Notes under the pieces: generated by a model
What the model was told of the DNA's origin: nothing
Databases searched by the model: none
The model's input: the letters and a program-made list of their open reading frames with translations, nothing else
Shown here: one piece after another, positions 11,593 through 34,622 of the stretch
Layout: each line of letters begins with the position of its first letter
How positions within the stretch are numbered: position 1 is the stretch's first letter
IMG/VR virus record: IMGVR_UViG_3300028840_003624
Coordinates: 1-42,300 of that record
DNA length: 42,300 bases
Direction: 5' to 3' (one strand)
Origin: a virus
Made by a program: the position numbers and the translations under genes

Positions 11593-11877
11593 ATGCATAC
11601 GAAACTCGTTAATCAGCGTAACTCGCCTTGCGATGTCGATATCGGTCGTCCTTCAATTTTCGGAAATCCATTCAGGATAGGACGTGATGGCACTCGGATG
11701 GAGGTTATTCAGAAGTATCGAGATTACTTTCATGCTCGAATCCAATACGACGATAGATTTCGACTGGCGGTCGAAGAACTAAGAGGCAAGACCCTTGGCT
11801 GCTATTGCAGCCCGCTACCGTGTCACGGTGATGTAATCGTGGATTTCTTGGAGGCGTCCGAAGATGAGTTCTCCTAA
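11593..11877 (+). CDS. DUF4326 protein, 94 aa
   Basis: The sequence shows the features of DUF4326: GRPSIFGNPFRIGRDGTR, then KYRDYF, then LRGKTLGCYCSPLPCHGDVI. The C.C....CHGD end is the family mark and could bind a metal. The family is frequent in phages and has no settled function that I know. The ATG follows the previous stop with no gap, and its end overlaps the ATP-grasp gene by 14 bases, so the two are likely translated together. Confidence 0.85.
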   Translation: MHTKLVNQRNSPCDVDIGRPSIFGNPFRIGRDGTRMEVIQKYRDYFHARIQYDDRFRLAVEELRGKTLGCYCSPLPCHGDVIVDFLEASEDEFS

Positions 11878-12748
11878 ATGGATCATCGAGACCGACATAT
11901 TCGAAGATGACCTTGTCGATGCTTTCATCGAAGCTGTTCGTCAACAAGGCCTTGAGGTTCTTTTGCATGACATTAAAAGAACGGATTTGATACCCTTGCT
12001 AGAAGATGATTGCGTCATTTTTCGTGGTTCCTTACAACTGGGGGCCAGAATTCGTCGAGATAAGGCATGGGTACCTGGGGTCTGGTGCGACCTGAAAAAC
12101 TTTGCATGCTCGAAGTACTACGCATACTTTGGAAAATATCTCCTGAATAGCAGCTATGCTATTCTACCCTACGCCGAATTTAAGCGTCTTTGGAAGTGGT
12201 TGTATCACCAATGGAAAGGGCGTGGGACAGGGTCAAGCGTTTTTGTTAGGCCTGATTCCGGTTTCAAGAATTTTACTGGTCAGCTAGTTTATGATGGTGA
12301 ATGGATCGACGATGTATTGTGTGAGGATGCCCTATGTCCTCCTGGAGTCAATTTCAAATCTTTTGTTCAAGACACGGAAGATTTTTATGGAGTCGATCCC
12401 CATAGTCTGGTGGTGGTAAGCCATCCTCAAGTAATCGATCATGAATGGCGTTTTGTTGTATGTGACCATAAAGTTGTCGCCGGGTCGCAATACAAACAAA
12501 ATGGGGAAATTAATATCCAAGCGGGATATTCGGACGAAGCCATCGATCTCGCGAGGAAAATTGCGGCTGAGAAATGGCAACCCGAGCGAGCTTATACCCT
12601 GGATATCTGCGATAACGCCGTGGGGGTATATTTGGTAGAGATTAACAGCTTTAGCTGTTCTGCTTTCTATCACTGTGATCCAAAACCTATTGTGGAAGCC
12701 GCTTCCAGGCTAGCCCATGAGGAATGGAAAGAAGTTAATGAAGACTAG
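11864..12748 (+). CDS. ATP-grasp protein (R2K-like), 294 aa
   Basis: The protein fits the phage ATP-grasp R2K/DUF4343 type: SSVFVRPDSGFKNFTGQ (nucleotide-binding strand), HEWRFVVCDHKVVAGSQY (R/K core) and LVEINSFSCSAFY (metal-binding E and N). ATP-grasp enzymes join a carboxylate to an amine or thiol with ATP, through an acyl-phosphate. The substrate here is unknown; peptide or amino-acid ligation is possible. There is no membrane segment. It overlaps DUF4326 upstream, which suggests a shared pathway (inference). Confidence 0.75.
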   Translation: MSSPKWIIETDIFEDDLVDAFIEAVRQQGLEVLLHDIKRTDLIPLLEDDCVIFRGSLQLGARIRRDKAWVPGVWCDLKNFACSKYYAYFGKYLLNSSYAILPYAEFKRLWKWLYHQWKGRGTGSSVFVRPDSGFKNFTGQLVYDGEWIDDVLCEDALCPPGVNFKSFVQDTEDFYGVDPHSLVVVSHPQVIDHEWRFVVCDHKVVAGSQYKQNGEINIQAGYSDEAIDLARKIAAEKWQPERAYTLDICDNAVGVYLVEINSFSCSAFYHCDPKPIVEAASRLAHEEWKEVNED

Positions 12749-12754
12749 TATAAT
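12749..12754 (+). promoter_or_regulatory. Putative -10 box directly before RNase H gene
   Basis: TATAAT ends 6 bases before the ATG of the RNase H gene, so a transcript from here would start at or next to the ATG and be leaderless. No ribosome-binding site is seen before this ATG. Confidence 0.4.
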
Positions 12755-12760
12755 AGAAAT

Positions 12761-13282
12761 ATGACCGTTGACACAGAACAAACCGAACCGGCAACAACCA
12801 TCTATATCTATACGGATGGTGGGTGCTATTATAAGACAGGGGTAGGGGCCTGGGCTTGGGCCATGTGCGACGCTCCCGACGCTGATCCGCTCATAACAAA
12901 TACGGCCTATGTCGATGGTACCACTAGTAATAGAATGGAGCTACGGGCCGCTATAGAGGCCCTGCGGTACCTCCTGACGCATCAAGTTGGTCCAGAAGGA
13001 AGCTACGAAAAGGTTGTTCTTACTTCCGACAGTCAGTATCTTGTTAATAGTATTCAATACTGGGCGAAAGCTTGGAGGGCACGAGGTTGGCGTAAATCAG
13101 ACGGCAAAGAAGTCCAGAACTCGGATCTTTGGGAAGAATTGTTGGAACTCGTAAAACAGATCGAGATCGAATGGAAGCATGTTCGGGGACATACTGGTAA
13201 CAAGATAAATACTTTATGTGACACAATGGCTACTGATCAAATGCAACTTCTGTATATGCTTAAGTCCAAAAGGTTAGCATGA
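12761..13282 (+). CDS. rnhA: Ribonuclease HI
   Basis: The four acidic catalytic residues are in place: D19 in YTDGGC, E60 in NRMEL, D90 in TSDSQYL and D154 in CDTMA, together with the H144 region VRGHTGN. RNase HI cuts RNA in RNA-DNA hybrids, for example primers of phage DNA replication. Length 173 aa is close to the family norm (about 155) with a short N-terminal extension. No ribosome-binding site precedes the ATG, but a TATAAT box does (see 12749). Its TGA overlaps the dnaJ ATG (ATGA), so the two are coupled. Confidence 0.93.
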
Positions 13283-14406
13283 AAGATCCATACAAAATCT
13301 TAGGGGTAGAACGAGCCGCTTCAGATGAGGATATCAAGAAGGCCTATCGGAAGGCTGCCTTGAAGTGGCATCCGGACCGCAACAAAGACAACCCAGGGGC
13401 AGAAGAAAAGTTTAAGGAAGCTGCTCAAGCTTATGAGACCCTGAGTGATGCCGGTAAACGTCGTCAATTTGATCATTTCGGTAGCGTCGATCCGGGTGGC
13501 GGAACGACTACAAGGACATACACCTATAGATCAGCAGGACCAAGCGGAGGAAACAATCCATGGTCTTCCATATTTTCTGGATTCCATGGACCTAATATCG
13601 ATGAAGTTTTTAATATGGGCGATGGTTTCACGATACACATCAATCCAGCAGCCCAGACTTATGTACGTCAATTTAACCCACACGTAAGAACTGCGACTTG
13701 GGTTAGTCTTGAAGAAGTAGCAACTGGAGCCACGAAAAAGATACGTATACATCGCGAAAAACTCTGCCAAGACTGTAATGGTCTCGGCGGCAGTGGGGAC
13801 AAGACCTGTCCCGAATGTCATGGCTATGGGGCCGTCGAGAAAAAGACAGTATTTCATCAGGTGCGGACCACCTGTCCTCGTTGTGGAGGAAAAGGTTCTA
13901 TCATATCAGATGAATGTAAGTCTTGTCGAGGCTCTGGCACGATTGGCGAAGATATAGACGTTGCCGTGAAAATTCCTTGTGGAATTGAAGATGGGACCAC
14001 CCTCAAAGTACGCGGACAAGGCAACATCAATCCCGATACCAAGGTTAGAGGGGATTTACTCTGTAATGTATCTATTACTCCCCATCGCCAGTTCCGACGC
14101 GAAGGCCCCCACCTGGTACAACAGGTTAGTATCAATTTGGCGGATGCGTGTCTAGGGAAAGAACTTTCCCTCCAGTCAATTTACGGCAAAAAACTAACGA
14201 TCACGACGCCCGCAGGCCTTCAAAGTGGGCAGACTTTCCGACTCAAAAACCACGGTCTTCCTGTGGTAAGTCACAATCTCAGTCAGCCACCTAAAGGCGA
14301 TATGTTCGTTAAGGTCAATATTGATATTCCAAAAGTCCTTTCCAACAAAGCCAAAAAACTAGTACAACAACTCCAGGCAGAAATCGACAAGGGTCAAAAG
14401 AAGTAG
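13279..14406 (+). CDS. dnaJ: DnaJ-type co-chaperone, full length
   Basis: All domains of a class A DnaJ are present: J domain (residues 1-66) with HPD at 31-33; a Gly-rich linker (about 72-105); the zinc domain with four CxxCxGxG-like repeats ([32 protein letters not shown], residues 163-220); and C-terminal substrate domains. It stimulates the host DnaK ATPase and presents substrates. In a phage it may help fold virion proteins or take apart replication complexes, as host DnaJ does for lambda. Whole DnaJ genes are uncommon in phages. Confidence 0.95.
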
Positions 14407-14490: not shown

Positions 14491-15540
14491 ATGAAACTGA
14501 CAAGACTGTTGATTGTGATTCTGTCTATCGGGGCAATGGCTGCTGGCCCGCCAACAAGTCAATCAACTACTACCCCGGCCAAAGCTCCAGCAAAGGCAAA
14601 GAAGGTCGCCCACAAGGCAAAGAAACCAAGTATTGCATCGTCTCTTCAAGCTGTTTCAGTAACCTTATCCACTGGTATGGGAGAAGGTAGTGGTGTCGTT
14701 GTCAAAAGAGGCCCTACTAACTTCGTATTAACTGCTGGTCACGTTGTGACTAGTCTTAGAAAGACCAGAGAGGTCGTCGATACCAGAACCGGCACCAAGA
14801 GAACGATCGTTGAATTTGACGATGTAAAAGTTATCCAGACGCTCTACGAAGATGGACGTAAAGTCGGCCAGTTAGAGATGTTGGCTGTTGTAGTTTGCTA
14901 CAGCGGGGCCGACCATGGAGAGGATTTGGCCGTTTTGAAAATCCTGAAAAGAGATTTTGTGAATGCTTCCGCGAAATTTTTTCTAGAGGAAGAACCCCCC
15001 GACGTAGGTCTAGAACTTTATCACGTTGGTTCATTACAAGGCCAACTCGGTAGTAATAGTCTAACGACGGGTATCATTAGCCAAATTGGGCGTAGGTATC
15101 AAGGTAAGCTGTATGACCAAACCTCTTGTACGGCGTTCCCTGGTTCTTCGGGAGGCGGAGTGTTTACGAAAGCCGAGGGTGAATACGTCGGAATGTTGGT
15201 CCGAGGGGCCGGTGAAACATTTAATCTGATAGTTCCTATCCGGCGTATCAAGAAATGGATGGATAAGATGAACCTTACGTTTATCCTTGACCCGTCGATA
15301 AAGATTCCGACTGAAGACGAACTGAACAAGGTCCCAATCGAAGACTCAGGAAAGACATGGCCCGTTCCGAGAACGGCTAGTGGTGATAAGAAACCGGCTG
15401 AAGCCGGACCCGGAACCCCAGCCAGGGCAGGTCATGATGATCCAATCTTCATCCTGCCAAAGCGAAGAGGGCAGCCCGATCATATCGATTACTGGCCCAC
15501 GGGGCCCCAGAAAAAGGCTCCGGTACTCAACCCTTATTGA
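14491..15540 (+). CDS. Secreted trypsin-like serine protease, 349 aa
   Basis: A signal peptide (LTRLLIVILSIGAMAAG) is followed by a Lys/Ala/Pro-rich linker (residues 28-47) and a trypsin-like domain with catalytic H84 (TAGHVV), D145 (EDLAVLK) and S220 (FPGSSGGGVF). This is the DegP/trypsin-2 type. The C-terminal 80 residues are Pro-rich and lack a PDZ domain. The enzyme probably acts in the periplasm or outside the cell; a target is not evident. The ribosome-binding site GAGGAGG is strong, and a terminator follows, so the gene is likely a single unit with the promoter at 14425. Confidence 0.88.
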   Translation: MKLTRLLIVILSIGAMAAGPPTSQSTTTPAKAPAKAKKVAHKAKKPSIASSLQAVSVTLSTGMGEGSGVVVKRGPTNFVLTAGHVVTSLRKTREVVDTRTGTKRTIVEFDDVKVIQTLYEDGRKVGQLEMLAVVVCYSGADHGEDLAVLKILKRDFVNASAKFFLEEEPPDVGLELYHVGSLQGQLGSNSLTTGIISQIGRRYQGKLYDQTSCTAFPGSSGGGVFTKAEGEYVGMLVRGAGETFNLIVPIRRIKKWMDKMNLTFILDPSIKIPTEDELNKVPIEDSGKTWPVPRTASGDKKPAEAGPGTPARAGHDDPIFILPKRRGQPDHIDYWPTGPQKKAPVLNPY

Positions 15541-19014: not shown

Positions 19015-19893
19015 TTACAGCCCGTCCGTCGAACCGCTCAGATCGACCTTGGAGATCGCGTAGTCGTTAATCACGGCGACGCCGATTTCCTCGTAGATCA
19101 CCCAGCCCAATCTTAGAGCTTTCGGATCATCAGCAGGAAGAACCGTAATATCCTGCCTAATTGGGAAAACGCCAACCGTATCAGGCGAGGCGACGACTAG
19201 GACGCTGTCAACATCCATACGAGACGACACATGGATATCGGCGGTCCATAGGTGTCCGAATAGTCCTGATGTCAGGATTTCACGGACGGTTGCCTGATCG
19301 TAGAATTCATGGCCGAAGCCACGAACGTACATGTAGTTGTTCGGGTGCATGATGATTCTGGTGGCGACCAGGTCATGCTGCTCGATAAGGGCGAAGCATT
19401 CGTTAAGAGCTTCGTGCGAAAGGGTCGAGGAGCCGCTAACGATCTGCGTGTTGCGGGTATCGACGGCGGACATCAGAGTTCTGAAGATAACCGTATCTTC
19501 TTCCTTCTGAATAGCTTCTTTCGCTTTGATCTGGGCTCTATCGACGATATAAAATCTTCGGGCCCTAATCTCGCTTAATCGGACCTGCGGGTTCGCGGCG
19601 ATCTCGAACGTCGGAACCAGCAGTTCTTCACCTTCAGCGATCTGATCGGGTACTCTACCCCGACGACCGAGAATGTGTGCGATTGCGGCAACGTCACGCT
19701 CGTACCGAGCGTACGCACCTTGTGGCAACTCGTCTACCAACAGTAGTTTACGCCCAACAGCCTGGTATTCCAGAGATCTGCGGATGGGCTCCACCATGGC
19801 CTGAGCGAGAGCTACTCTACCCTCTGGAGATTCCAAAGCTTGAGCAACGATCCACTCTTTTTGTTCGTTAGTAAGGTTTGCCTTCTCAAACAT
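19015..19893 (-). CDS. Major capsid protein (HK97-fold type)
   Basis: The 292-aa product has the look of a HK97-type capsid protein: a helical N-terminal part (TNEQKEWIVAQALESPEGRVALAQAMVEPIRRSLEYQ), the P-domain-like segment with DLVATRIIMHPNNYMYVRG, then an A-domain end (VDSVLVVASPDTVGVFPI, RLGWVIYEEIGVAVIND). It forms the icosahedral shell. A GGAG ribosome-binding site precedes the ATG, and a strong terminator follows the gene. The position after portal, protease and the 1662-aa gene supports the call. There is no long N-terminal scaffold domain, so scaffolding must come from another gene. Confidence 0.85.
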   Translation of the reverse strand: MFEKANLTNEQKEWIVAQALESPEGRVALAQAMVEPIRRSLEYQAVGRKLLLVDELPQGAYARYERDVAAIAHILGRRGRVPDQIAEGEELLVPTFEIAANPQVRLSEIRARRFYIVDRAQIKAKEAIQKEEDTVIFRTLMSAVDTRNTQIVSGSSTLSHEALNECFALIEQHDLVATRIIMHPNNYMYVRGFGHEFYDQATVREILTSGLFGHLWTADIHVSSRMDVDSVLVVASPDTVGVFPIRQDITVLPADDPKALRLGWVIYEEIGVAVINDYAISKVDLSGSTDGL

Positions 19894-20791: not shown

Positions 20792-23700
20792 TTATCGGAA
20801 CATCCTATCTACCGGATGTTCTTGGCTGAATCGCTCATAGTCTCGATTCCGTTTATCCAACGTAAATGCCTGTTGGATCTGACCTGTAAGATCGTCGCCA
20901 GGAACTTCGACGGGTCGGGTCGCTGCGGATGCTGTCGTCAACGCTGCTAGCACCTCGCTTGCTCCTGGAGTGCCTTGTTTCTGCATACCTGGTTGCGTCT
21001 GGGCTGCGGTTTTAGCTTCCTGATCTGAAGCTGCTTTCGCAACGATTGATTGTTCGACTACCTTCAGAGTTTCAGGGGTTAATCTCGACAGTTCTTCGAT
21101 TTTTGCTACTAGATCGACGCCTTCAATCATTCCGGCTTTCAACATTTCCCCTGCCACCTGGGCTGCGTATTTCTGATCCGTATTCGTCGATGCAGTGGCT
21201 GAAATATCGTTTCGCTTGCCTAGAGTTTCATCAATCTTCTCTGGATGGATGCTCTCGTTTTGATCGTATTTTGGATTCACGCCACCACCCATTGCTACTG
21301 GAGGATGTTCTTCTGCTTTACCAGAATCCTCTTCCTTAGAGATCCGTCCATCGTTGGGAGCTTTCGGAGTATCAAACTCTTCTACCCCATCATTCGGCTT
21401 TTGCTCGTCTTCGGCACGCTCATGTGTCTTATTCGCTCTGACGTTACCCGTATCCGGGTCATCCGCCAGTTCGTCTTTCTTATTCAAACTTTTTGTCGTA
21501 ACTCCTTCTTGTTTCTCGATTTTTTGTTGCTCTTCTTGCTTAACTTTAGCCAGAACTAGCTTATCTGTCCCTTCGGGCTTCACGTCATAAGTATTGCCGT
21601 CGTTCAATGTGACAGTATGTACGCCCTCTGCTAGCTTGGCTAGAAGTTTCGGATAAAGAGCATGAGTTTTGCTTACTGAGTAACTGGCGACCTTAGTTTC
21701 GGCCTCGTCACTCGCTTGACGCTCGTTGCTACCTTGATTTCCGTCTACCATTGTCTGTTTCTCCGGTCGAATGGTCTCACCACTCATGGCAGGAGAACCC
21801 TGTGGAATCGACGGTTGATCACCTGTTTCGCTGACCGTATTTTCCGCAGTTTCTTTGCCGATAGTAGCTTGGGCTCTCGGAGCGTCAAAACCATCCTCTA
21901 CATTGGTTTTGAAAGACTCTTCATCACCCATTTTGCCGCCATCCTGAACCTTGCCTGCGGTATCCTGGGCTGGAGTCTCATTGACTTTCTTTTGCTTAAC
22001 TGACTTGTACTCAATCTTCTGTTGAGAATCTTGAGACTTGGCTGTTTTGACCGTTCCTTCGGCCTCGGCCGTTTTCTGTTGGCCGGGTTGCTCAGCAGCC
22101 GCTTTAGCGGCTTGCTGCTTTGCCAACTGCTCTACCAATCCGTTAAAGACATTATCTAGACCTGATTGCTGGCTGCCAATCGATCCCGTCTTCATCTTGA
22201 TCAGCATAGAATTCAATCTTGCTGCTTCTGCTTGACGGTTCTGTTCTGTAGTCACGTTTGAGGCCTCCTTTTGTATCACTTCAGCAGGGGCCGCTGGCTT
22301 TGAAGCCTCTTTGACTTCGCCAGTCGTTTCTTCTGCTACCTCTGCTGTCGTTTCTTTCTCGGAGTTAGGTTGCTCGCCTTCAGGTTTCGCTTGCGGTTCA
22401 GGCTCCTTCTTCTCAACAGGTTTCGAGCAAGGTTTTGGAGTTGAACATTCCTTGTCCTCTTCCTCTCCACCTTCTTCTTCGGGTTCGCTTTCCTTAACAA
22501 TATCCCCTTCGGCCCCTACCTCTTCCGTTTCTTCCTCGCCTTTCAAACCAGGAATTTCTTCAGTACCCTCTTCTTCTGGACTCTCAACGGTTTCCTCGGT
22601 AACCTCGGAAACGTCGAGATCTGGAGCGGCTTCTTCGCCCTCCATAACATCAATGCTTGGCTCGACTTCCACCAGTGAATCATCGATGTCGCCGTTACTC
22701 ATTTGCATCAAGACATCGACAAGCTGGTCCAGTTTGTCAAGCAGCGTATCGAGTTTAAGACTTACTGTGTCGCCTTCAATACCGAGATCAAGCTTATCAC
22801 CACCGAGCGGTCCCATATCTTCAGGACCTTCTTCAAGGCCGACTGGCTCGGGCTCGCTAGTCATTTCACCACCAGGAAGTTCCGGCTCTTCAGGCGATAC
22901 GGGAACATCGAGCGGGCCTTCCATTGGTTCTTCTTCATCGAACAAGCCAGCAGTCTGAATGATGCCCTCGATAATCAAGTCTTCCTCGGGGGCAAATGCG
23001 GCTCGCAAGCCATCGGTTGCGATCTTGGCATCTGTTAGGCTGTAACCTGCCTTAACCAACATTGTTTGGCAGGTCTCAATCGGGTTGTAAACCCGTGGAT
23101 CATTACTGGCCATATGCGAAGCGACCTTTGCGGCGACGCCATCTGTATAGATCCCAAGGCGTTCAAGCTGGTCACAAACGCAATCCGCCAATTTGGCTCC
23201 CTCGCAAGGTCCGGACATGGCCGTTGCGTTTTCTCCCCAACGTCTCTTTAAGAGTTCACGACAGGATGCAGACGGGAACTTATCGAACTGAGCCCGGTCA
23301 TCCCAACGCTTACTCGCGGCGCATTTTTCGAGTGGGAGAGGAGCGAGTAACCCATTGGCAATATCCAATGAGCCAGCCTTCGCAATCTTGAGAACCATAT
23401 CCGCCTGGGCCTTGGTGCCTGGTAGGCTACGGAACTCATCCCACGTCATGCCGTAGTTAGCGAGTGACTCGATAAAGGCCTTCTTGAGCGGAGTCACGCA
23501 ACCATCGCATTTGGCTGGATTTGGGTTCCACAAGAACTGAGCGAATACTTGATGCTTCTTATCCTTGCCACCACGGATCTGGAAGTTGTATTCCTGGCCG
23601 CATGTCCAGCAGTAGCCATCCAATCCGTCGCTAGCCGCTGCTTTATGCAGATCAGTTTCTGAACTACCACATCGTGGACAAATCTTACCGATTTTGATCT

Positions 23701-25780
23701 TCTTTTCGGCGATCTTTTCGAGAGTACGCGGCGTTAGTCTTGCGGACGCCCCGACTGGAACGGATGGCATTACGCTGCCTTCTGGAGCAGGTTCAGCCCC
23801 TGCCATCTCCTCGGTTCCGGCAACAGCTTCTTCCGCCGAAACTCCTTCTTCGCCTTCACCTTCGGTTTCCTGGATAACGTCAGGCCATTTCTTAATGTTC
23901 ATATCGACCTCAATCGTGCCCTCACCACCACAGTTGTTGCAGCGGAAATCACCGTTATCTACGTCTACATCTGTACTGCCACAAACTGGGCATAAAGATC
24001 CAGGCGGCTTTGGTTCACCAGTGGGCTCTTCGCCCCCTTCACCTGGAGCCATATCCTGCGTTAGGCTTTCGGTAGGCGGAACGCCTCCCATGTCGCCTGC
24101 CCCCGGAGGAGCTTCCGGATTCATCATGTCCGGGCCTGCTCCAGGCCCACCGGCTCCCATTTGGCCACCAGCAGGCATTTGGGCTTCTTTAGTAGTTGCA
24201 TTGCTTGATGCTACTTTCCCTAAGGCTTTGTCCGCCATTTCCTGCCGACGAGCCGCTCTTTTGTCGATCTCGTCCTGACTGAGTTTGGTTTCATTGCCAG
24301 CCTTAGCATCTCTCATAATGGCCGTGAAACACTTGTTTTCCTCGTCCACGTTTAGGCTGAGACCTTGAAGTTCCGTATCTGGTTCTGATTTGCTGATTTT
24401 GGCGATCGAATGGGCCATTGCAGCTTCTGCGAAGACCTCTCTGTTCCGTGGGTCGGCGTCGATTTCAGCGAAATGGCCGTCATAAGAATACAGTCCATCC
24501 TTTGCCTCGCCTTCAGCAGTTGGGTCATCAAATTCGCCAGCAGCAACTCGTTTGAAGATGTCGAATTCATCCTGTGGAGTTGGCTCGACTTGCTCGGCCG
24601 TCAAGAGTAGATCTGTTTGCTTTTCAATGCGATCTTGTAGATCTTGACGTGAAGTAATGCCCACCAAACTTCCCACAATGGCTTTCGCGGGAGCTTTGAT
24701 AGAAGCTAGAACGCGAATCAAGGCATCAGCAGTCTGGGATGGCGACCAGTTTTCATGAGCACTAGCCGACTTACCCCAATATCTCGCCTTAGCAACCTTT
24801 TCCTCGATATCTTCAGTAGATACATTCACCTTCTGATAGGTACCGATCATATTCGCCAGAACAGCATACTTACTCGGATGAGAAACTAGTCGCCCAGCAA
24901 CAGTTAGAAGCTGCTTGGGTACAACACCACTAGCCAAGAGTATCTTTGCTAGTGCTTTTTCAGCCTGTTTCATGGTTTCCTGAGCATCAGCCGCTGTCAT
25001 GCGGCTCAATTCGCCGTCCTGCGACTCAAGCTGATCTTTGCCTTCCGTAATGGTTTCTGGATCGGTCCATTCGTGGTGGCTGAGAAGTTCCTGAATTTGC
25101 TTATGCATAATTTGCTGCCACTGCGAATCCAGCCCACCATCGAAAACCGCCCCTACTTCGCCACGATTCAGGCCACCGACAGGGGCATTGAATCGGCTCT
25201 TGTCATCATCTAACTGCTTCTCTGTGACTTGGTTACGATCTTCATCCCGGTCCTTGCCTGAATCACGAGACTTATTGTAGAAGGTCGAGCCTTCATTACG
25301 CAATTGACGCTCAGTAATCTCATCATAGGTTCCTGGACGCTGACCTTGCGGGTACCCTGGGGACGGATCTGGGATCTGTTTTTCTGTGATCTGTTCCGGG
25401 GATTCCTCGGTACGCGGATGCAGATCAACCCTTTGTCGATCAAGCTGTTTTTCTTGAATGGTATTCCAGGTCGTAGAATCCTGAGTGGCATGGGCTGCTT
25501 CTTTCTCAAAATCTTCCATGAAGCAGTTGCATAGGTCTTCCGCTACCTTGTCAGGATTTTGATTGATCTTATCGATAATTTCGTCATCCAGGTCTGTGAC
25601 AGCAACGCTGTCATACTCAGCACCTTTGTAAAATCTGGTGACTTGATCACGAGCAAGAACCACTCTGAAATCGCCATTAATGGCTTCTGTGCGAGTCCCA
25701 ACTGAAGTACTCACTCGATTGGCACTTTCGCTGAGACGTGAAATTAGACTAATTCGAGACTTAGGGTCCATCGAAGACAT
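20792..25780 (-). CDS. Giant 1662-aa head protein in scaffold position
   Basis: No known family is evident. Residues 107-251 hold a repeated short motif: IQEKQL, ITEKQI, ITERQL, VTEKQL and ITEGKDQL, about 25-60 residues apart in polar, likely unfolded sequence. Two zinc ribbons follow: CPVC...CNNC (C597, C600, C614, C617) and CPRC...CWTC (C701, C704, C724, C727). A Cys-rich helical part spans about 755-935. A very acidic stretch comes next (about 946-1150, many EE and PE), then long Gln/Lys/Glu-rich coiled-coil-like segments to the end. It lies between the protease and capsid genes, where a scaffold or prohead core usually lies. Acidic, low-complexity content fits a scaffold, but 1662 aa is very large for one. 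GGAGA precedes the ATG. Confidence 0.6.
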   Translation of the reverse strand: MSSMDPKSRISLISRLSESANRVSTSVGTRTEAINGDFRVVLARDQVTRFYKGAEYDSVAVTDLDDEIIDKINQNPDKVAEDLCNCFMEDFEKEAAHATQDSTTWNTIQEKQLDRQRVDLHPRTEESPEQITEKQIPDPSPGYPQGQRPGTYDEITERQLRNEGSTFYNKSRDSGKDRDEDRNQVTEKQLDDDKSRFNAPVGGLNRGEVGAVFDGGLDSQWQQIMHKQIQELLSHHEWTDPETITEGKDQLESQDGELSRMTAADAQETMKQAEKALAKILLASGVVPKQLLTVAGRLVSHPSKYAVLANMIGTYQKVNVSTEDIEEKVAKARYWGKSASAHENWSPSQTADALIRVLASIKAPAKAIVGSLVGITSRQDLQDRIEKQTDLLLTAEQVEPTPQDEFDIFKRVAAGEFDDPTAEGEAKDGLYSYDGHFAEIDADPRNREVFAEAAMAHSIAKISKSEPDTELQGLSLNVDEENKCFTAIMRDAKAGNETKLSQDEIDKRAARRQEMADKALGKVASSNATTKEAQMPAGGQMGAGGPGAGPDMMNPEAPPGAGDMGGVPPTESLTQDMAPGEGGEEPTGEPKPPGSLCPVCGSTDVDVDNGDFRCNNCGGEGTIEVDMNIKKWPDVIQETEGEGEEGVSAEEAVAGTEEMAGAEPAPEGSVMPSVPVGASARLTPRTLEKIAEKKIKIGKICPRCGSSETDLHKAAASDGLDGYCWTCGQEYNFQIRGGKDKKHQVFAQFLWNPNPAKCDGCVTPLKKAFIESLANYGMTWDEFRSLPGTKAQADMVLKIAKAGSLDIANGLLAPLPLEKCAASKRWDDRAQFDKFPSASCRELLKRRWGENATAMSGPCEGAKLADCVCDQLERLGIYTDGVAAKVASHMASNDPRVYNPIETCQTMLVKAGYSLTDAKIATDGLRAAFAPEEDLIIEGIIQTAGLFDEEEPMEGPLDVPVSPEEPELPGGEMTSEPEPVGLEEGPEDMGPLGGDKLDLGIEGDTVSLKLDTLLDKLDQLVDVLMQMSNGDIDDSLVEVEPSIDVMEGEEAAPDLDVSEVTEETVESPEEEGTEEIPGLKGEEETEEVGAEGDIVKESEPEEEGGEEEDKECSTPKPCSKPVEKKEPEPQAKPEGEQPNSEKETTAEVAEETTGEVKEASKPAAPAEVIQKEASNVTTEQNRQAEAARLNSMLIKMKTGSIGSQQSGLDNVFNGLVEQLAKQQAAKAAAEQPGQQKTAEAEGTVKTAKSQDSQQKIEYKSVKQKKVNETPAQDTAGKVQDGGKMGDEESFKTNVEDGFDAPRAQATIGKETAENTVSETGDQPSIPQGSPAMSGETIRPEKQTMVDGNQGSNERQASDEAETKVASYSVSKTHALYPKLLAKLAEGVHTVTLNDGNTYDVKPEGTDKLVLAKVKQEEQQKIEKQEGVTTKSLNKKDELADDPDTGNVRANKTHERAEDEQKPNDGVEEFDTPKAPNDGRISKEEDSGKAEEHPPVAMGGGVNPKYDQNESIHPEKIDETLGKRNDISATASTNTDQKYAAQVAGEMLKAGMIEGVDLVAKIEELSRLTPETLKVVEQSIVAKAASDQEAKTAAQTQPGMQKQGTPGASEVLAALTTASAATRPVEVPGDDLTGQIQQAFTLDKRNRDYERFSQEHPVDRMFR

Positions 25781-25883: not shown

Positions 25884-27296
25884 TTAAAGCTTTCTCATAT
25901 CTAGCTTGAGGGCAAGACACCGCTTTTCATCCGTGTCCTTGACAGACCGGATCAGACGCCTAGCTAGATCAAGTGAGCGTCTGTTTGTCCCTTGGAGAAT
26001 TGCAGATTTGTTCATTCTGTAGCCTATATCGGATGCAATTGGTCCAGTTACAGTCCCGGCCCCGCCAGCGGGGCCTGCTTGTACATTCGACGTTGGGGCC
26101 GGAGTAGGACTAACAGGAGTCATACCTTGTGACTGGGGAGGAAATTGAGACTGTCCGCCACCAGCCGCCGGACCACCTGAAGGAGCACCGGTAGTAGAAA
26201 GTTGACCAAAGCCCTGCTGGGTTAGCTCATCCGTGACTCCCTGAAGATCAGCAAGTACCTTTGCTAAATCACTTAAATATTCAAGATCTACTTTTTCTTT
26301 TTGGTCTAAAATATTCTTAGATACATCTGTAAGCAATTCCATCGCCTGATGGAGAGAATCTATATCTTGCTGGCTGGCATAACGAACGCATTTTTGGTCA
26401 TCACACACAAGATTCTGCTGGGATGCGACCTTAAGTAAGCCAGGCAATCTTTGGCTGATATCAGCCACTTTGGCAATAAACTTAGAAGTATCAATTACTT
26501 CTGTGACGCCGCAGCTATGACATGCCGGATTTACTACAAATGAGTTCTCTATAAACTCAACACCAAAGTTATGTTCGTATGCCTTATGGTTGACACTGAA
26601 GGTCTTAATATCGTCTTTTGTCGAACCACAAATTGGACAAGGGCCATGGCCCTTTTCTGGGAATCTGCATCTAACATTGCGACTGGAGATATGACGAGTT
26701 TTTCTTTCCCGTATATGCTCACAATAGTCTTTGGGGGTTTCGGCATAGTGGTGACAGATGGAGCAAACACTGTAGGCAACTTTGCATCCCATGCTCGTTC
26801 CGACGATGTACTCTTCTTTAATACCACGAGCTAACTGTGGGTATGCCTCTGAATCTACGCGGGCAATAATCATAATGCCATCGCGGTCTGGATCATACCA
26901 ACTATGAACTACTTTCCCCCTTGCCTGATTTATGTCAGAGTTTTGATGATTGGTAAAGACTGGGACCCCAACGAATGTTGACGTTGCTTTTCTCAATTCT
27001 TGCGTAGAAAACCAATCTCCATTATCGTTCATTTCATTTGCTTTAATAGCAAAAACTTTGACATACAAGCTATCGGGATGTTTCTTAACTTCGGCCTCTA
27101 TATCAAAAACCTGGTCATTACTGCTAAGATCCCCATCCTTTGTTCTAGCCTCTTTAATCTGACAGGAAGCCACATGAATGGCGTCTGGTGAAGCTGAAAG
27201 ACCCTGGGGTTTGACAATGGAGTCACTTAAGACTGGAACGTGAAGTGGAGATATTTCACATACGGTAAAGTAATTTCTCGCAACTTTAATTAGCAT
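25884..27296 (-). CDS. Prohead maturation protease-like protein, 470 aa
   Basis: Residues 79-175 show the pattern of phage prohead proteases: VKVFAIKANEMNDNGDWFS, then VGVPVFTNHQ with likely catalytic H117, then ARGKVVHSWYDPDRDGIMIIARVD, then the Ser in GTSMG (S168). These enzymes cleave scaffold and capsid proteins inside the prohead. Unusually, a Cys-rich insert follows (CSICHH...CEHI, CPICGS, CHSCG, residues 178-262), like two zinc sites. The last 150 residues have a helical part and a Pro/Gly/Gln-rich stretch. Its start overlaps the end of the 1522-aa gene by 11 bases. I did not identify the third catalytic residue. Confidence 0.65.
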   Translation of the reverse strand: MLIKVARNYFTVCEISPLHVPVLSDSIVKPQGLSASPDAIHVASCQIKEARTKDGDLSSNDQVFDIEAEVKKHPDSLYVKVFAIKANEMNDNGDWFSTQELRKATSTFVGVPVFTNHQNSDINQARGKVVHSWYDPDRDGIMIIARVDSEAYPQLARGIKEEYIVGTSMGCKVAYSVCSICHHYAETPKDYCEHIRERKTRHISSRNVRCRFPEKGHGPCPICGSTKDDIKTFSVNHKAYEHNFGVEFIENSFVVNPACHSCGVTEVIDTSKFIAKVADISQRLPGLLKVASQQNLVCDDQKCVRYASQQDIDSLHQAMELLTDVSKNILDQKEKVDLEYLSDLAKVLADLQGVTDELTQQGFGQLSTTGAPSGGPAAGGGQSQFPPQSQGMTPVSPTPAPTSNVQAGPAGGAGTVTGPIASDIGYRMNKSAILQGTNRRSLDLARRLIRSVKDTDEKRCLALKLDMRKL

Positions 27297-30200
27297 CGCT
27301 AGTTATCTCCGAAACCAACTCATCGATTTTGTTGGATATCCCGAACTCACATTTTGAATCCAAAATATCAGCGGCAGTGAGCAATCTCTGGATAGCGACA
27401 GAAGCTCTACTCACCATACGCTTACCTTTACGACCTTTCTGTGCCTTTGACCTTCTTGTAACAAAGAAAGAATTGGCAGGAGCTTCCATCGCTTTCGGAG
27501 GCTCTTTGGGCTGCTCTTCAGGTGGCTGTTCGGTCTGTTCTGGGACTGGTTCGGCAGCAGGCTGTACCACCTCTTGAGTAGGCTGGGCTGGTTCCTGTAT
27601 TTCAGGCTGTTCAGCAACCGGAGGCATATTTACGCCTTGCGGTTGTCCCATGATATTGGTTGGGGCCGCATCGGGTTCTTCTTCACTTGGAGGGCCTTCA
27701 GCAGGTTCTAAATCCTGATCAACCTGCTTTTGTTGATTACCTAAGTCAGTAAACTGTTGGGCCATACCAGACGTTCTTTGACCAGTTGGATCGACATCCC
27801 AATTCTCATCCGCTACATCTTTCTCGAATGTATTGACATCCTCATTCCGATTTACGGACTGGTCAGTAAGAAATTCAGCCCCGCCAATCGAGCCGATGTA
27901 TAGGACCTCAAGTCCAGGGGTTTGTGTTTCCTTCGCGATCTTAACATCTTCCTGGCTGGAAGCATTAGGATTGATCTGCTGGATTCGTTCCTGGTTTTCT
28001 GGAGACATCAACGCAGCATTGTTGGTAGCCGCCTGATCCCGAGCCATGGCTACAGCTTTCTTGACGTGACCATACAGACTCTTTAAGTTGATAGAGAATG
28101 GCTCGATGAAAATCTGCGTCTGATCAAAAGAATCTGCATAGTGAGTATATAGATAGTTCAACGAATCTCTGAAATTCATACTGTGATGCAGAGTCTTGTG
28201 AAAATGTTTATTTGATGTAGCTATACCAACAAAGTATTCAACATTTTCTACTACTACAAAACCACCACGCCGAGCAGCTTGTTGGCTATACTCCAATGTA
28301 TCCGGTAACCAGTCTCCCTGCTCGAAATTACGAGTACGTGCCGTTAAAACGTCGCCTGTACGAATATGACGCTTACCCAAAGCACGTCTAAGAGTACTGA
28401 AATAGCTATCAAGATGGCCTGTCACATCAGCCTCTCTATTCGCGGGACTAACAAAGTAGTCTTTGTAATCTGAAGCTCGATAGGCATACCGAACCCCAAG
28501 CATTACTTCACCACCACCAGCTTTACCTGATGCCGTTGAATACCCAACTCCATAGGCTTTTGCCCCTCCCGAATACGAACGTTGTTGGGCACAAGCCCTG
28601 ACGGATATAGCTGATATTAGGTCCATTATCTTTGAAAGCTTGTAACCATATTGCTTCCATGCCTTAAAACCATCAGCAGTGATGCGACTGTTTACATTTG
28701 CAGGGGCTCCTGTAGAGATCAGCTTCCGATTGCCGTAACGAGCCGGTAATGTTGCCAAAGAGCGACCACCAACTTGTACATCGGTGAGACGAGTCAGGCA
28801 TTTGGTCAGCCAATCCCAAGCTGATAACTCGTCATTCTCCCGACCGGCCATGCTGCCAAACTTGCCATTGCGATACATCTGGACCAGTTCGCTAGCCATC
28901 CTCTGCAAGTCTTTTGTATACTTGGAGAAGATTTCATTAGGAATGTCAGTCAAAGCTTGGTTCGCTGACCTAAAGGCTTCCGTATTAAACCAGTCTAAAT
29001 TGCTCATATAGGCTTGACGAGGATCATTCTCACTTTCGATAACCGAACCTGCTAATTCTGGACCTCGCTCTAGTAGAGCCGCCAGTTGTGCTCTTAACTG
29101 GACCCATTTTTGTGGTCTGCGAGGTTTGCGAGGCTTGCGTAGACCTGCTTGTCTAGCTTGCTCGACCTTGGAGGCATATTGTGAGTCCTGTTCTTTTTCG
29201 ATCTGACGCATTTCGTCGATTAGCGTTCTGATAGTTGTTTCGAACCCACTCTCGCCCGCCTTATCACGAAGAGCTTGAAGGTTGCTCTTTTCTGGATCAT
29301 CGCTTTGGCCAAGAGCGTAGTTCAAAAACCAATTGCCCGAAATATCTCGTTGCAATTGTTCCTGCAAATCAGATACAATAAGATGTACCTTATAAAACAA
29401 ATCTCTTCCAGTGGCTGGATTCCCCAACTGGACTACTGGCTCGCCCTGCTCGCCATGTACTGAGTACTTACCCTGCTTGAATTCATCACTTTCTAGATGT
29501 CTCAACAGTTGATTCACACTCTTGATGGCAGAAGGTAGGCTAGGCCGGACAAAACTATCCATAAAGTTAGTGGTCAGATCCCCATCGCCGAATAATTCGG
29601 GGTCTGCCTGCTGTTCCGGGCTCAATGTTGAATCGAATGCAGAAGTCCCATACTTACCGATCGCGAAACCAACATTATCAGCATTTGTGCGACCATTGAT
29701 AATGGCTGCAATAATCGAGCGAACATCATTTTCCACATCTTTGTCCGGGCTGCGAACAGACCCGACACTGATTCTATTAAGAGCGTCATACCATCGATCT
29801 ACAAGTCCACTCATACAGTACTTTTCAATGATATTGGCTAGCCCCACTTCCTCTCCTCGATCAGAGAACTGCCAATAACGCAGTAGATGCTTTCTACCCA
29901 AGTTGCCATCATCAATATTCTCTACCAGGTTCTCACCTGGCAAAAGCTCCTCTTGTGGCATAGGAACCTGTCGAATAGAGGGAAAGGCATGCATAGTTAA
30001 ATGACGAGGCATTTCTGGCATTTGAGCCGCCAAGGCCGGATTGATCTGCTTCAGCAGATCTTGGACCATATTGACGTAACGAACCAGAGTTGGGTCTACT
30101 CGCATAGTATCAAAACCATTTGCGTAGTAGTATACCGGGGTATCGGGAACAACAAAGTGGCCCTCTAGAGCATCAAATGCTTGTGGTGATTTTTTGGTAA

Positions 30201-31854
30201 TAGACTGAGCCAGCAATTGCAATTCTTCAGTGGTCAGCTTCGGGCAGTAGAACGTGGCCTTAATTTCTGGCTTTCGAGACCGGGCTCGTTTTATCCCTGC
30301 TGCTCGTTCTTCCGGAGAGCGAGCAGCTTGCTTCTCATATTCTGCCACAATCTCAAATGATAAACGGCTAACATCCAAGCCGCCTCGTTGTAGAGTAATC
30401 CGACCGTATCCTGGTTTCTGGGGGAATTCTTGCCACTGAGGACGGCTCCACATATACGGGCCGTATATAGGTTCAAATGAAAGCATAAAGCGATTAAAAT
30501 CTGCTTCATTGATTAGAGCGTAACCCCATCCTGCACGAAATTCCTGCCACGCAGGCCGTGACCAGTGGTCTCTGGGATGCTCACGCATAAAGTCCTCTTT
30601 CCGGATTAAGCGAGAACCATCACGAGCCAGACGCATAAAGCGAACATTATCATAAGGGCGTTCATCTCCTATCGATAGAAGAATGTCATCTTCTGGTTGG
30701 TTAGCAAGGAAACGATCAAACCAGTTATTACGTCCTCTTCCAGCGTTGTTTGCGGATTTATACGCATTGGTAATGTTCTGAATCATCTGCTCGTAATGAT
30801 GTTCTATGTTACGACGAGACCCCTCATCGACATCACCACGTGAGATAAGACGATCCTCTTTCAACTTGTAGACTAATTTACGAAGTTGTTTCTCATCCAG
30901 ACTGTAACCACGAGCAATAAGATTGGATATACCCCTCATCAAGTAGCCGGGTTCTTTGATTGTCGGAATCTCATCTACCGGTACCGACATTCGCTCTTTC
31001 CGGTTAGTCGAAGTCGAAACAGTTGGCAAATTCTCGGCCTTGGCTCGGATATACCGCTTAATATCAGTTGCTCTGCGTCTTACATCTCGGCTCGGAGCAC
31101 GGCGTGAAAGCATATCCGACCAATGTAGAGCGAACTCAATGGCCTGATCAAACTTCTCCATTTGTTCTCGATGTGGCTGATATGCGGCCCTGTTACGATC
31201 TAGAGACAGAAAACTTCGTAGATTGTTACTATCAATGCCACCCCTGTCCCCCTTGCCTAATACCGAAGAGTCGTAATGAGGCATAACTGGTATCAGGTTC
31301 ATTTCTAGATCATGAATTAAGTCATGAATTCCTACTCCGTCTGGGATATTAGGGTCTTGCTGCTTAATCAGTTCATTGATTAACTCAATGATATCCATTG
31401 ACCGGACTCGGGCTTCATCGTTGTTGATAGGCAGGATGGTACGCCTGTAACGTAGACGGAAACAAACATGAGCCAATGGACTCTGTTCGCCCCCGCGACT
31501 AATGTTTTGAATCCGTTCTGCCCCATCGATTGGTATATCTTTGAAGCCTTCCCCATCGACTTCTGTCCAACCCTGCCAACCTTCAGGCTGTAATTTGAAG
31601 GCTCCGGGAGTGAATGGGACTCTTTCTTGACCCATTCTGCTCACGAAGTACTTGCTAAAGGTATCACGAATGTTTGTAGATGTACGCTCGATCTGATCGG
31701 TAGCCGGGACCCAACTCCAAAGAATGTTTGAGAAAGAGTTCGAGGCAGTCCTAACGCCCTGCAATTGAGACATTGCTTCACGTATAAGCTCCGCATTACC
31801 TTCATAGAGATCATCAAGCGGAACAATTTGGACTTTTCTCTTTTGGTCGGACAT
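27286..31854 (-). CDS. 1522-aa protein of unknown function, head module
   Basis: I recognise no family. The protein is basic and helical over most of its length. Residues 431-439 and 469-477 carry a repeated WSRPxWQEF motif, each followed by a GYG/GYA turn. A basic Pro-rich patch (GLRKPRKPRRPQKW) lies in the middle. The C-terminal 140 residues are Pro/Glu/Gln-rich and then turn basic (RRSKAQKGRKGKR). It lies between the portal-side 135-aa gene and the protease. Candidates are an internal head protein injected with the DNA, a core protein, or an enzyme in the virion; none is proven. It is the second-largest gene here. Confidence 0.6.
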   Translation of the reverse strand: MSDQKRKVQIVPLDDLYEGNAELIREAMSQLQGVRTASNSFSNILWSWVPATDQIERTSTNIRDTFSKYFVSRMGQERVPFTPGAFKLQPEGWQGWTEVDGEGFKDIPIDGAERIQNISRGGEQSPLAHVCFRLRYRRTILPINNDEARVRSMDIIELINELIKQQDPNIPDGVGIHDLIHDLEMNLIPVMPHYDSSVLGKGDRGGIDSNNLRSFLSLDRNRAAYQPHREQMEKFDQAIEFALHWSDMLSRRAPSRDVRRRATDIKRYIRAKAENLPTVSTSTNRKERMSVPVDEIPTIKEPGYLMRGISNLIARGYSLDEKQLRKLVYKLKEDRLISRGDVDEGSRRNIEHHYEQMIQNITNAYKSANNAGRGRNNWFDRFLANQPEDDILLSIGDERPYDNVRFMRLARDGSRLIRKEDFMREHPRDHWSRPAWQEFRAGWGYALINEADFNRFMLSFEPIYGPYMWSRPQWQEFPQKPGYGRITLQRGGLDVSRLSFEIVAEYEKQAARSPEERAAGIKRARSRKPEIKATFYCPKLTTEELQLLAQSITKKSPQAFDALEGHFVVPDTPVYYYANGFDTMRVDPTLVRYVNMVQDLLKQINPALAAQMPEMPRHLTMHAFPSIRQVPMPQEELLPGENLVENIDDGNLGRKHLLRYWQFSDRGEEVGLANIIEKYCMSGLVDRWYDALNRISVGSVRSPDKDVENDVRSIIAAIINGRTNADNVGFAIGKYGTSAFDSTLSPEQQADPELFGDGDLTTNFMDSFVRPSLPSAIKSVNQLLRHLESDEFKQGKYSVHGEQGEPVVQLGNPATGRDLFYKVHLIVSDLQEQLQRDISGNWFLNYALGQSDDPEKSNLQALRDKAGESGFETTIRTLIDEMRQIEKEQDSQYASKVEQARQAGLRKPRKPRRPQKWVQLRAQLAALLERGPELAGSVIESENDPRQAYMSNLDWFNTEAFRSANQALTDIPNEIFSKYTKDLQRMASELVQMYRNGKFGSMAGRENDELSAWDWLTKCLTRLTDVQVGGRSLATLPARYGNRKLISTGAPANVNSRITADGFKAWKQYGYKLSKIMDLISAISVRACAQQRSYSGGAKAYGVGYSTASGKAGGGEVMLGVRYAYRASDYKDYFVSPANREADVTGHLDSYFSTLRRALGKRHIRTGDVLTARTRNFEQGDWLPDTLEYSQQAARRGGFVVVENVEYFVGIATSNKHFHKTLHHSMNFRDSLNYLYTHYADSFDQTQIFIEPFSINLKSLYGHVKKAVAMARDQAATNNAALMSPENQERIQQINPNASSQEDVKIAKETQTPGLEVLYIGSIGGAEFLTDQSVNRNEDVNTFEKDVADENWDVDPTGQRTSGMAQQFTDLGNQQKQVDQDLEPAEGPPSEEEPDAAPTNIMGQPQGVNMPPVAEQPEIQEPAQPTQEVVQPAAEPVPEQTEQPPEEQPKEPPKAMEAPANSFFVTRRSKAQKGRKGKRMVSRASVAIQRLLTAADILDSKCEFGISNKIDELVSEITSDAN

Positions 31855-31857
31855 CTA

Positions 31858-32265
31858 TCATCCCTTAATATGTTTTGGGATATCCACAGCAGCTAGATCT
31901 TCTTTGCGGTAGGCCCCCCGGTTGGGCGGCATGGGAGTGCCCCACATTTCGGCAGCATGAGATAAAGCCCCAGCCAAAGTGGGAAAATATTTCCCACTTG
32001 GACTATAGGCTTTCTTCTTGGGGTTCTTAGGGAGCTTTTTTACTCCGGCAAAGAACATCTTGCCATATTTTTTGGAAATAGCCGGGCCAACAACGACGTA
32101 GTAAGGATGGCCTGTTTCATAGTCATATCCTTCCCAGCGGAAATAAGAGCCGGGTAACATCGATTCAAACTTCTTTTTAGCCTGAACAGATCTTTCACCA
32201 TACTCTTCTTTCCAACGGATATGTCTGTCTCGCAGCCTCCTTCTACCCGCCTCAACCGTTATCAT
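31858..32265 (-). CDS. Hypothetical 135-aa basic protein
   Basis: The start ATG at 32265 has an AAGGATAG ribosome-binding region just upstream. The product is very basic at both ends (RRRLRDRHIRWKEEYGERS, LPKNPKKKAYSPSGK) with an aromatic beta-like middle (FRWEGYDYETGHPYYVVVGP). It sits between portal and the 1522-aa gene in the head operon, with gaps of 3 and 17 bases, so it probably is a virion or assembly protein. Not recognised. Confidence 0.6.
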   Translation of the reverse strand: MITVEAGRRRLRDRHIRWKEEYGERSVQAKKKFESMLPGSYFRWEGYDYETGHPYYVVVGPAISKKYGKMFFAGVKKLPKNPKKKAYSPSGKYFPTLAGALSHAAEMWGTPMPPNRGAYRKEDLAAVDIPKHIKG

Positions 32266-32282: not shown

Positions 32283-34622
32283 TCACAGACCTAGCATTTC
32301 GAACGGATCGTTATCTTCAATTTTAAGGCTATATCTAACCTTAACTATCCTGATGTAGTCATCGTATTTACCAGACATCTCCTTTACCTCTCCCTTGCTC
32401 ATGGTAAAGAGATGAATACCATTACCGTCCTTCTTGCTCCCAGTTTTTACACCCGGCTTAGGATGTTGCTTCAACTTACCAATATACGTACTAATAGTCT
32501 TCCTAACCTCGTGCGGAGCATCATTTATCACTTTATCGTCGAATCTAAGGACGGTCCAGCCTCGCTGGGCGAGCAAATAATCACGCTCTTTGTCTGATTC
32601 TGCTTGTTTAGGAGTACTATGCCAGATCTCTCCGTCGCATTCGACGGCAAGTTTAATATTGGGAATAGCGAAATCGAGGGTATACGGCTTTCCACCATGA
32701 GGATTCGGAACATCCCTAACAGGATGTTGAGCTAAAACATGTTGAGAGGCAATGCCTTGGCTATTGGCCACCTCGGTCAACATTTGAGCCATTTTCATTT
32801 CAATTGAAGTAAGTTTTATCGGAAACGTTTGTGGGACCAATGCTTGCTGATCTCCACCCTTCCCCTTTCCCGGCTTAACCACTTTGCCGCCAGAAGCGGC
32901 TAGGGCTTGAGCCCCACCGCCCATTTCTCCACCAGGGGCTGCTCCCATTTCGCCGCCACCCATCGGAGCCCCGCCTTCTGGACCGCCCATTGGTGGTGGA
33001 GCCCCCCCGGCTCCACCCATGGGAGCACCTCCGCCCATCGGAGCCCCGCCACCCATAGGGGCTCCTGCTCCAGCGGTCCCCTGGGCCTGCTCCCAACGCA
33101 TACGCTTGACTTCCTGGTCGTAATTGAGATCCAATTCCGAGCAGAGGGTCTGTGTACTAATGATTTGACGTTCATGAAGCTGCAAAAGAATCTGCCAGAA
33201 ATTGCTCTTGTCCTTCAAATTTAGATCGTTCCACTTGATCTCTGGGTACTGATATACAGTTTCACCTATGTCTTCCGACTCTTCTGGGTCGATGAAATTC
33301 TGCATTTCAGCGATTGGACGGAAAATACGTTCTTCTGCCCATTCTTTAAGATCCAACCTCCAAGATTCGATTCTGCGAATCAGGGTTTCAACACCGACTT
33401 GGGCAGATGAGTAACCACTCATTTCGCCGTTGAGAAGAGCCTGGTTCAACATAAACCCATCGAGGATTTCCTTCCCGATGTATTCCATTTCGTTGGTAAC
33501 TTGTAAGATTTTACCACTTGCACCATACCATTCATAATCAAAATTATGATGAGTTACAATAGTAACATTAGGATCATTTGAGACTGCTGCAAGCTGCTGT
33601 TGCAAATCAGCAATGTCAGCAGTAGATGCTGGACGATTATCGCTTCCAAGTTTAACAACTCGAACCGGCAGAATAAGACGCTCAGCCACAATCCAGTTGG
33701 CCGTCATAATTTTTGTCTTATATGCCAAAGTTGTAAACAACCTTCTAATAAGACTTGTTCCATACGTTCCATATGGTACAGGCATATGTTTTAAGTGAGA
33801 AACAGTTCTATTGGAAAGAGGTATAGGTCTCTTTTGAGCTATGAAAGCTTTTATTTGCTCAGGAATGCGATCATAGATTTTCTTCGGTCGTCTCTGTTGA
33901 ACAATGCGACGCATTTCTTCATCAGGAACTAGGACAATATCTGCCTCTTCCGCGAGCAGCGGCTGGCGTACCTCGATCCAATCGGGATTGAGAATCTGCA
34001 CTCGCTTGATATGTCCGCCCGGATGATTACAATATTCACCCGTATTCGGGTCATATGCTTGACCATGACAGACAGGGCAGAATATATCTGTGTGGATAAA
34101 TACATCGCCCAGCATGAAATATTCGCTGCTTATCTGTTTGAAAGTATCATTAAGCTTGAGTGGTTTAACGACTTTGTTTTCGAACCATTTTAGGATTTTC
34201 GTATTTGGGCATTCTAAATCGAAACCATTCATGGGGAAGCGACTATAGAAATCGATTGCCGCAGCTACCTTTGGTTCATTGGAGTAGAAGAATCTACACC
34301 AATTATAAATCTCTCTCCGTTTACTCGCAATTTGCCAGGCTTGTGGGGTGTGGAGTGGTGAAAACCACATTGGTTGCGTCATTACATTATTGACGCCACC
34401 AACTGCTTGAGCCATTCTCAGCCAATGCTCTGGATAAGACGCAGCGGCTGATCGGCCATACTTGAATGTCCCTTGATCGGCCCCGAGTTTCTCTACTGCT
34501 TCCTTGATGAAATTGTCCCGACGACTTTGAGGAGTTAGGCCCTGCTCATAGGGATCACCCATGATTAGGGGTTCATAAAACCGAGGGTCGTCGGGGAAGA
34601 CCAAACCAACGTTTGAAGGCAT
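32283..34622 (-). CDS. Portal protein with C-terminal DUF559/Vsr-like nuclease domain
   Basis: Residues 1-512 look like a phage portal: the YNWCRFFYSNEPKVAAAIDF start helix, PMNGFDLECPN, the YFMLGDVFIHTD segment, KRVQILNPDWIEV, and the long helical C-part with NEMEYIGKEILDGFMLN. Portals form the 12-mer ring through which DNA enters. Residues 182-204 hold CPVC...CNHPGGH, a zinc-knuckle-like insert. A Gly/Pro/Met/Ala linker (513-595) with repeated GGGAPMG units follows. Residues about 605-715 fit DUF559/Vsr-type PD-(D/E)xK nucleases: YTLDFAIPN (D650), LAVECDGEIWH (E661, D663, H668), DKERDYLLAQRGWTVLRF. The reading frame is open throughout. The nuclease role is inferred from motif; a packaging or DNA-end role is possible. 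Confidence 0.8.
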   Translation of the reverse strand: MPSNVGLVFPDDPRFYEPLIMGDPYEQGLTPQSRRDNFIKEAVEKLGADQGTFKYGRSAAASYPEHWLRMAQAVGGVNNVMTQPMWFSPLHTPQAWQIASKRREIYNWCRFFYSNEPKVAAAIDFYSRFPMNGFDLECPNTKILKWFENKVVKPLKLNDTFKQISSEYFMLGDVFIHTDIFCPVCHGQAYDPNTGEYCNHPGGHIKRVQILNPDWIEVRQPLLAEEADIVLVPDEEMRRIVQQRRPKKIYDRIPEQIKAFIAQKRPIPLSNRTVSHLKHMPVPYGTYGTSLIRRLFTTLAYKTKIMTANWIVAERLILPVRVVKLGSDNRPASTADIADLQQQLAAVSNDPNVTIVTHHNFDYEWYGASGKILQVTNEMEYIGKEILDGFMLNQALLNGEMSGYSSAQVGVETLIRRIESWRLDLKEWAEERIFRPIAEMQNFIDPEESEDIGETVYQYPEIKWNDLNLKDKSNFWQILLQLHERQIISTQTLCSELDLNYDQEVKRMRWEQAQGTAGAGAPMGGGAPMGGGAPMGGAGGAPPPMGGPEGGAPMGGGEMGAAPGGEMGGGAQALAASGGKVVKPGKGKGGDQQALVPQTFPIKLTSIEMKMAQMLTEVANSQGIASQHVLAQHPVRDVPNPHGGKPYTLDFAIPNIKLAVECDGEIWHSTPKQAESDKERDYLLAQRGWTVLRFDDKVINDAPHEVRKTISTYIGKLKQHPKPGVKTGSKKDGNGIHLFTMSKGEVKEMSGKYDDYIRIVKVRYSLKIEDNDPFEMLGL

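Follow-up and report, generated by a model that had tools for sequence, protein, structure and literature searches.

PBECR, 2H or toxin domains fused to MuF or portal proteins have been described, as have nuclease domains on MuF proteins, and it has been suggested that such domains are packaged and then injected (PMC5512222, PMC5576092). Behind most MuF toxin genes lies a small ORF (PMC5576092). The portal of T4 has a stem, a wing and a crown inside the capsid (PMC9958956), and when GFP was placed at the C-terminus of the T4 portal protein gp20, the GFP was found inside the prohead and DNA was still packaged (PMC10893049).

The window analysed here, the whole 42.3-kb stretch of an IMG/VR virus record, contains a gene at 32283..34622 on the minus strand in which family, fold and comparative evidence support a portal, a flexible linker and a Vsr/DUF559-type PD-(D/E)xK nuclease following one another. 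The single open frame that an earlier note had placed at these positions, with no strand named, is present on the minus strand: it starts with ATG and runs unbroken for 779 aa, with 18 stops on the plus strand across the same interval. The fusion is confirmed as real and in one frame. The window itself is probably a fragment of a larger genome, because relatives reach several hundred kb (clade contigs in IMG/VR extend up to 547,943 bases).

Relatives were collected from IMG/VR scans with alignments A1 and A3, and duplicates were removed. The earlier note had proposed searching phage portals for a C-terminal DUF559, and the nuclease was found in 74/74 distinct complete clade portals, the window's own included. 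The joining of two genes through a sequencing error, which it had raised against its own reading, or through an assembly error is ruled out at next to zero probability because the identical join occurs in 74 distinct ORFs, 73 of them outside the window, and nothing in the window favours such an error. The clade portals lacking the nuclease were either cut by a contig end or came from L070, where the frame is broken and the nuclease lies in another frame. Internal stops interrupt both the portal and TerL of this 187-kb record, each of which is spread over several frames; this has the look of sequencing error.

The nearest cultured relatives are portals of the phage G type, and the nuclease was present in 0/8 distinct ones; on the portal tree a long branch separates them from the fused clade. 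None of the 50,697 records of a cultured phage collection covered 80% of the fusion protein, and a profile scan of genome contigs with alignment A1 gave no relative. The statement that no standard portal carries such a domain therefore stands for the cultured phages searched but not for the uncultured clade, where the fusion is the rule. Being conserved throughout the clade, the fusion is a core trait of this lineage of huge phages, of which no member occurs in the cultured phage collection searched.

The portal domain was assigned to residues 1-512 (33087..34622, minus strand; conserved core about 61-512), as had been suggested from the letters of the sequence. Residues 100-446 match PHROG 16240 (E 1.4e-39), and Pfam Portal_Mu scored 31.1 bits, above its cut-off of 23.9 bits. 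The AlphaFold model of the whole protein is poor (pLDDT 51.6), therefore the assignment comes mainly from sequence. Within this low-confidence model, residues ~127-520 align to many portals, among them those of lambda, T4, HFTV1 and G20c (Z 5-7), and the alignments with solved portals extend up to residues about 499-520, which corresponds to the crown end in those portals. A BFVD fold search named no portal among the 50 matches listed.

A zinc-knuckle-like insert, CPVC-x12-CNH (residues 182-200; 34023..34079, minus strand), lies within the portal domain. It had been noticed in the window, and the motif is largely conserved among intein-free relatives, with the three cysteines (C182, C185, C198) in 16/19 and both H200 and G187 in 19/19; a search of phage G-type portals did not find it. 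One phage G-type portal of 1016 aa (L186:3995-7042) has a C-terminal extension of ~400 aa with a CPIC motif. This extension gave no Pfam match above cut-off, and a MuF-like domain was rejected for this portal as Pfam gave no MuF match.

The low-complexity Gly/Pro/Met/Ala linker (residues 513-595; 32838..33086, minus strand), described before as repetitive, has the same character in relatives, being 68-124 aa long with a median of 74% G/M/P/A in 19 intein-free proteins. Near its end is a basic motif, KVVKPGKGK (residues 580-588; 32859..32885, minus strand), and a comparable motif was found in 57/74 relatives, starting mostly 23-26 residues ahead of the nuclease. That a free nuclease might be made from an internal translation start was considered and rejected; SD-like sites do precede ATGs in the linker, with no conserved position.

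For the nuclease domain (residues 600-725; 32448..32825, minus strand), Pfam DUF559 matched residues 647-712 with 35.6 bits (cut-off 20.6). An AlphaFold model of residues 592-779, made from an alignment of 19 sequences, had a core pLDDT of mostly 75-93 and could be superposed on Vsr (1cw0; Z 12.5, 2.2 A over 114 residues), 3hrl (Z 11.2) and the catalytic domain of the homing endonuclease I-Bth0305I (3r3p; Z 10.8), the last ranking top both in Foldseek and in a profile search of PDB sequences. The PD-(D/E)xK fold on which the earlier reading of residues 600-720 depended was thus recovered, and D650, E661, D663 and H668 lie where they had been placed. Further invariant residues are E608, D677, R680, D681 and R693. 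E608, D650, E661 and H668 were retained in 74/74 portals (H668 shifted in two) and D663 in 71/74, supporting a predicted DUF559/Vsr-like nuclease with intact active-site residues. It was rejected as Vsr proper: the Vsr model TIGR00632 was unlisted for the window and scored ~17 bits in two relatives against a cut-off of 97.85.

Large in-frame insertions, 1-4 each, were present in 51/74 portals. Pfam scans of seven portals with such insertions found intein-splicing or LAGLIDADG domains in every one. In mycobacteriophages, inteins are known in functional motifs and also in a portal (PMC5050341). The active-site motif E661-C-D-G-E-I-W-H668 (32619..32642, minus strand) contains an intein site that is empty in the window, and in seven relatives an intein lies exactly between E661 and C662. 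Because an intein sits in it, the active site is likely to be needed, and this position can be regarded as an independent natural sign of its importance. Other insertions precede C109 (L002, L003, L004 and other portal loci); their first residue is often Ser, with single cases of Asp, Gln, Glu and Thr, and His-Gln takes the place of Asn at the end of several, an unusual pattern for inteins. Several clade TerL genes (e.g. L099-L106) encode 1000-1200 aa with matches in pieces broken near residue 125; this break adjoins the Walker A region and looks like an intein site.

The nuclease domain is under purifying selection as judged from codon comparisons: over the core (~604-694), dN/dS was mostly 0.02-0.08 in the closest pairs, with a median of 0.15 over 75 pairs. 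Portal and nuclease identities were correlated (Mantel r 0.69, against at most 0.14 in 999 permutations). The nuclease was a single copy per genome, in the portal only, in 12/12 fused-clade records searched, with no free-standing copies elsewhere in those 12 records, and there was none in four phage G-type records.

A 135-aa gene lies directly downstream of the fusion (31858..32265, minus strand) and adjoins it throughout the clade, following it in 141/143 loci with a complete fusion. The exceptions are L161 and L050; in L050 the locus ends no more than about 60 bases from the portal gene, too close for the 135-aa gene to be seen. The gene was not found beside phage G-type portals. Also on the minus strand are a probable prohead (head maturation) protease at 25884..27296 (PHROG 18299, E 9.5e-12) and the major head protein at 19015..19893 (PHROG 2522, E 9e-66). 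These head genes, like the TerL present in most of the records searched, fit the neighbourhood of a tailed-phage portal. The head gene region further encodes two very long proteins with no Pfam matches (20792-25780 and 27286-31854; 1662 and 1522 aa), and the regions 1788-2822, 2707-4806, 11864-14406 and 14491-15540 of the window gave radical SAM, NAD-dependent DNA ligase, ATP-grasp R2K, RNase H, DnaJ and trypsin-like protease.

By homology to T4, where the portal C-terminus is inside the head, the C-terminus of the fusion is expected to be inside the head with the nuclease facing the lumen, presumably as a dodecameric ring. The trimming or processing at an outer DNA gate that had been proposed for the domain conflicts with this expected location. 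Action on terminase products had been suggested too; standing in for the terminase is unlikely because TerL retains its own nuclease motifs in the genes read (the middle motif was unmatched by the search pattern in L098), and TerL was in the same record in 21/23 records searched; a replacement for a lost terminase nuclease was rejected on these grounds. The third suggestion, the destruction of non-self DNA, is possible. A predicted DNA-cutting domain is surprising here, as it would sit in the head beside the phage's own genome, and this in very large uncultured phages. Few phage machines are as conserved as portals, and a predicted DNase fixed to one and facing the packaged genome raises the questions of self-protection and target.

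The domain could most likely be a virion-carried DNase that is restrained from the phage's own DNA, a function to which we give a probability of roughly 0.35. The tether would leave the crown and, as in known portals, up to twelve nuclease domains per ring would be in the head, loaded there through their attachment to the portal. The nuclease could be kept off the phage's genome by its choice of substrate, by modification of the DNA or by an inhibitor, for which the 135-aa neighbour is a candidate. It might then be released, possibly through cutting of the linker by the prohead protease, and the freed nuclease would accompany the genome into the host and there cut the DNA of the host or of rivals. 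The presence of the fusion throughout the clade but not in phage G-type portals is consistent with this, as are the retained catalytic residues with low dN/dS, the Vsr/I-Bth0305I fold in one copy per genome within the portal, the alignment of the low-confidence portal model with solved portals to the presumed crown end, and the head protease encoded nearby. A GFP domain was tolerated in the same place on T4 gp20 (PMC10893049). There is also a precedent in the RNase (PBECR) and 2H domains carried on MuF or portal proteins and the nuclease domains on MuF, and the small ORF behind the fusion resembles what follows most MuF toxin genes. However, effectors of the MuF kind are polymorphic, whereas one domain type is kept clade-wide under purifying selection here, and a core role fits better with such a single conserved domain. 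A DNase beside the packaged genome would need a safeguard, and simple removal of the domain would not call for a tether of 68-124 aa.

The domain could alternatively serve as a checkpoint at the crown, at which the attached nuclease would cut mismatched, unmodified or host DNA entering the head so that wrong DNA is not closed in. This alternative, which we hold to be only slightly less probable, agrees with the core-type conservation and low dN/dS, with the tether being retained in all intein-free relatives measured, and with fold relatives that are specific for mismatches (Vsr) or modifications (PvuRts1I, AbaSI). However, no precedent for it was found, cutting within the head would waste the particle, and among 11 large records three had QueC matches and one matched a thymidylate synthase family, which is no consistent sign of DNA modification. 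That the portal is a bifunctional gate, whose permanently tethered ring of lumen nucleases inspects each packaged genome and cuts non-self DNA, is rather unlikely.

Debranching linked to packaging was also considered, since T4 endonuclease VII, in association with the portal protein gp20, resolves the branched DNA on which the motor stalls (PMC10893049), and the Vsr fold includes a mismatch endonuclease. Phage G, in which the portal has no nuclease, has a RuvC resolvase, and resolvase matches were missing from the fused-clade records searched (RuvC or RusA in 10 records, RuvX in 8 tested), although this contrast comes from few genomes, mostly fragments. A branch would stall outside the portal, however, whereas the C-terminus is expected inside, and Endonuclease VII was matched in one genome of the fused clade; we regard this role as improbable. 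Slightly more improbable still is an action before packaging, in which the nuclease on unassembled portals or nascent proheads would clear DNA or cut host DNA in the infected cell and be removed by the protease before genome entry. This would solve the problem of self-damage, and a head protease is encoded nearby, but it would leave the phage's own DNA open to attack during replication. A homing endonuclease fused to the portal and persisting as a selfish element is very improbable: the nearest solved structure by sequence is I-Bth0305I and the clade portals are rich in intein-like insertions, but this reading is largely contradicted by the lack of a separate DNA-binding domain in our searches, the single copy in the portal in every record searched, the absence of any complete clade portal without the domain, the joint divergence of portal and nuclease, and the inteins inserted into the nuclease itself.

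Compared with known systems, the domain shares its catalytic fold and the stretch surrounding the active-site Glu with I-Bth0305I (an EDxHD homing endonuclease), and differs in belonging to a single-copy core gene, with no homing context and no extra DNA-binding domain found. The fold is also that of Vsr (1cw0, 1vsr), with TIGR00632 scores in relatives far below the cut-off. T4 endonuclease VII is likewise a DNA nuclease linked to a portal, a comparison of working only, as it is a separate protein of a different nuclease family. The nearest cultured portal, Bacillus phage G gp14, has 32% identity over residues 69-516 and a Gly/Pro-rich tail, but no nuclease domain. In the phage records and open-access literature searched, no portal-DUF559/Vsr fusion was noticed. 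Enzyme domains attached to head-vertex proteins are already known, while a Vsr/DUF559 domain fixed in the portals of a whole clade was not found in that literature. A MuF polymorphic toxin was rejected as an identity for the fusion protein, in which Pfam gave no MuF match and the C-terminal type is invariant in 74/74. The fusion does resemble the MuF and portal effector fusions in that a head-vertex protein ends in an enzymatic domain, with a small ORF directly downstream, and it differs from them in that the Vsr-type domain is on the portal itself and is kept as one type clade-wide under purifying selection.
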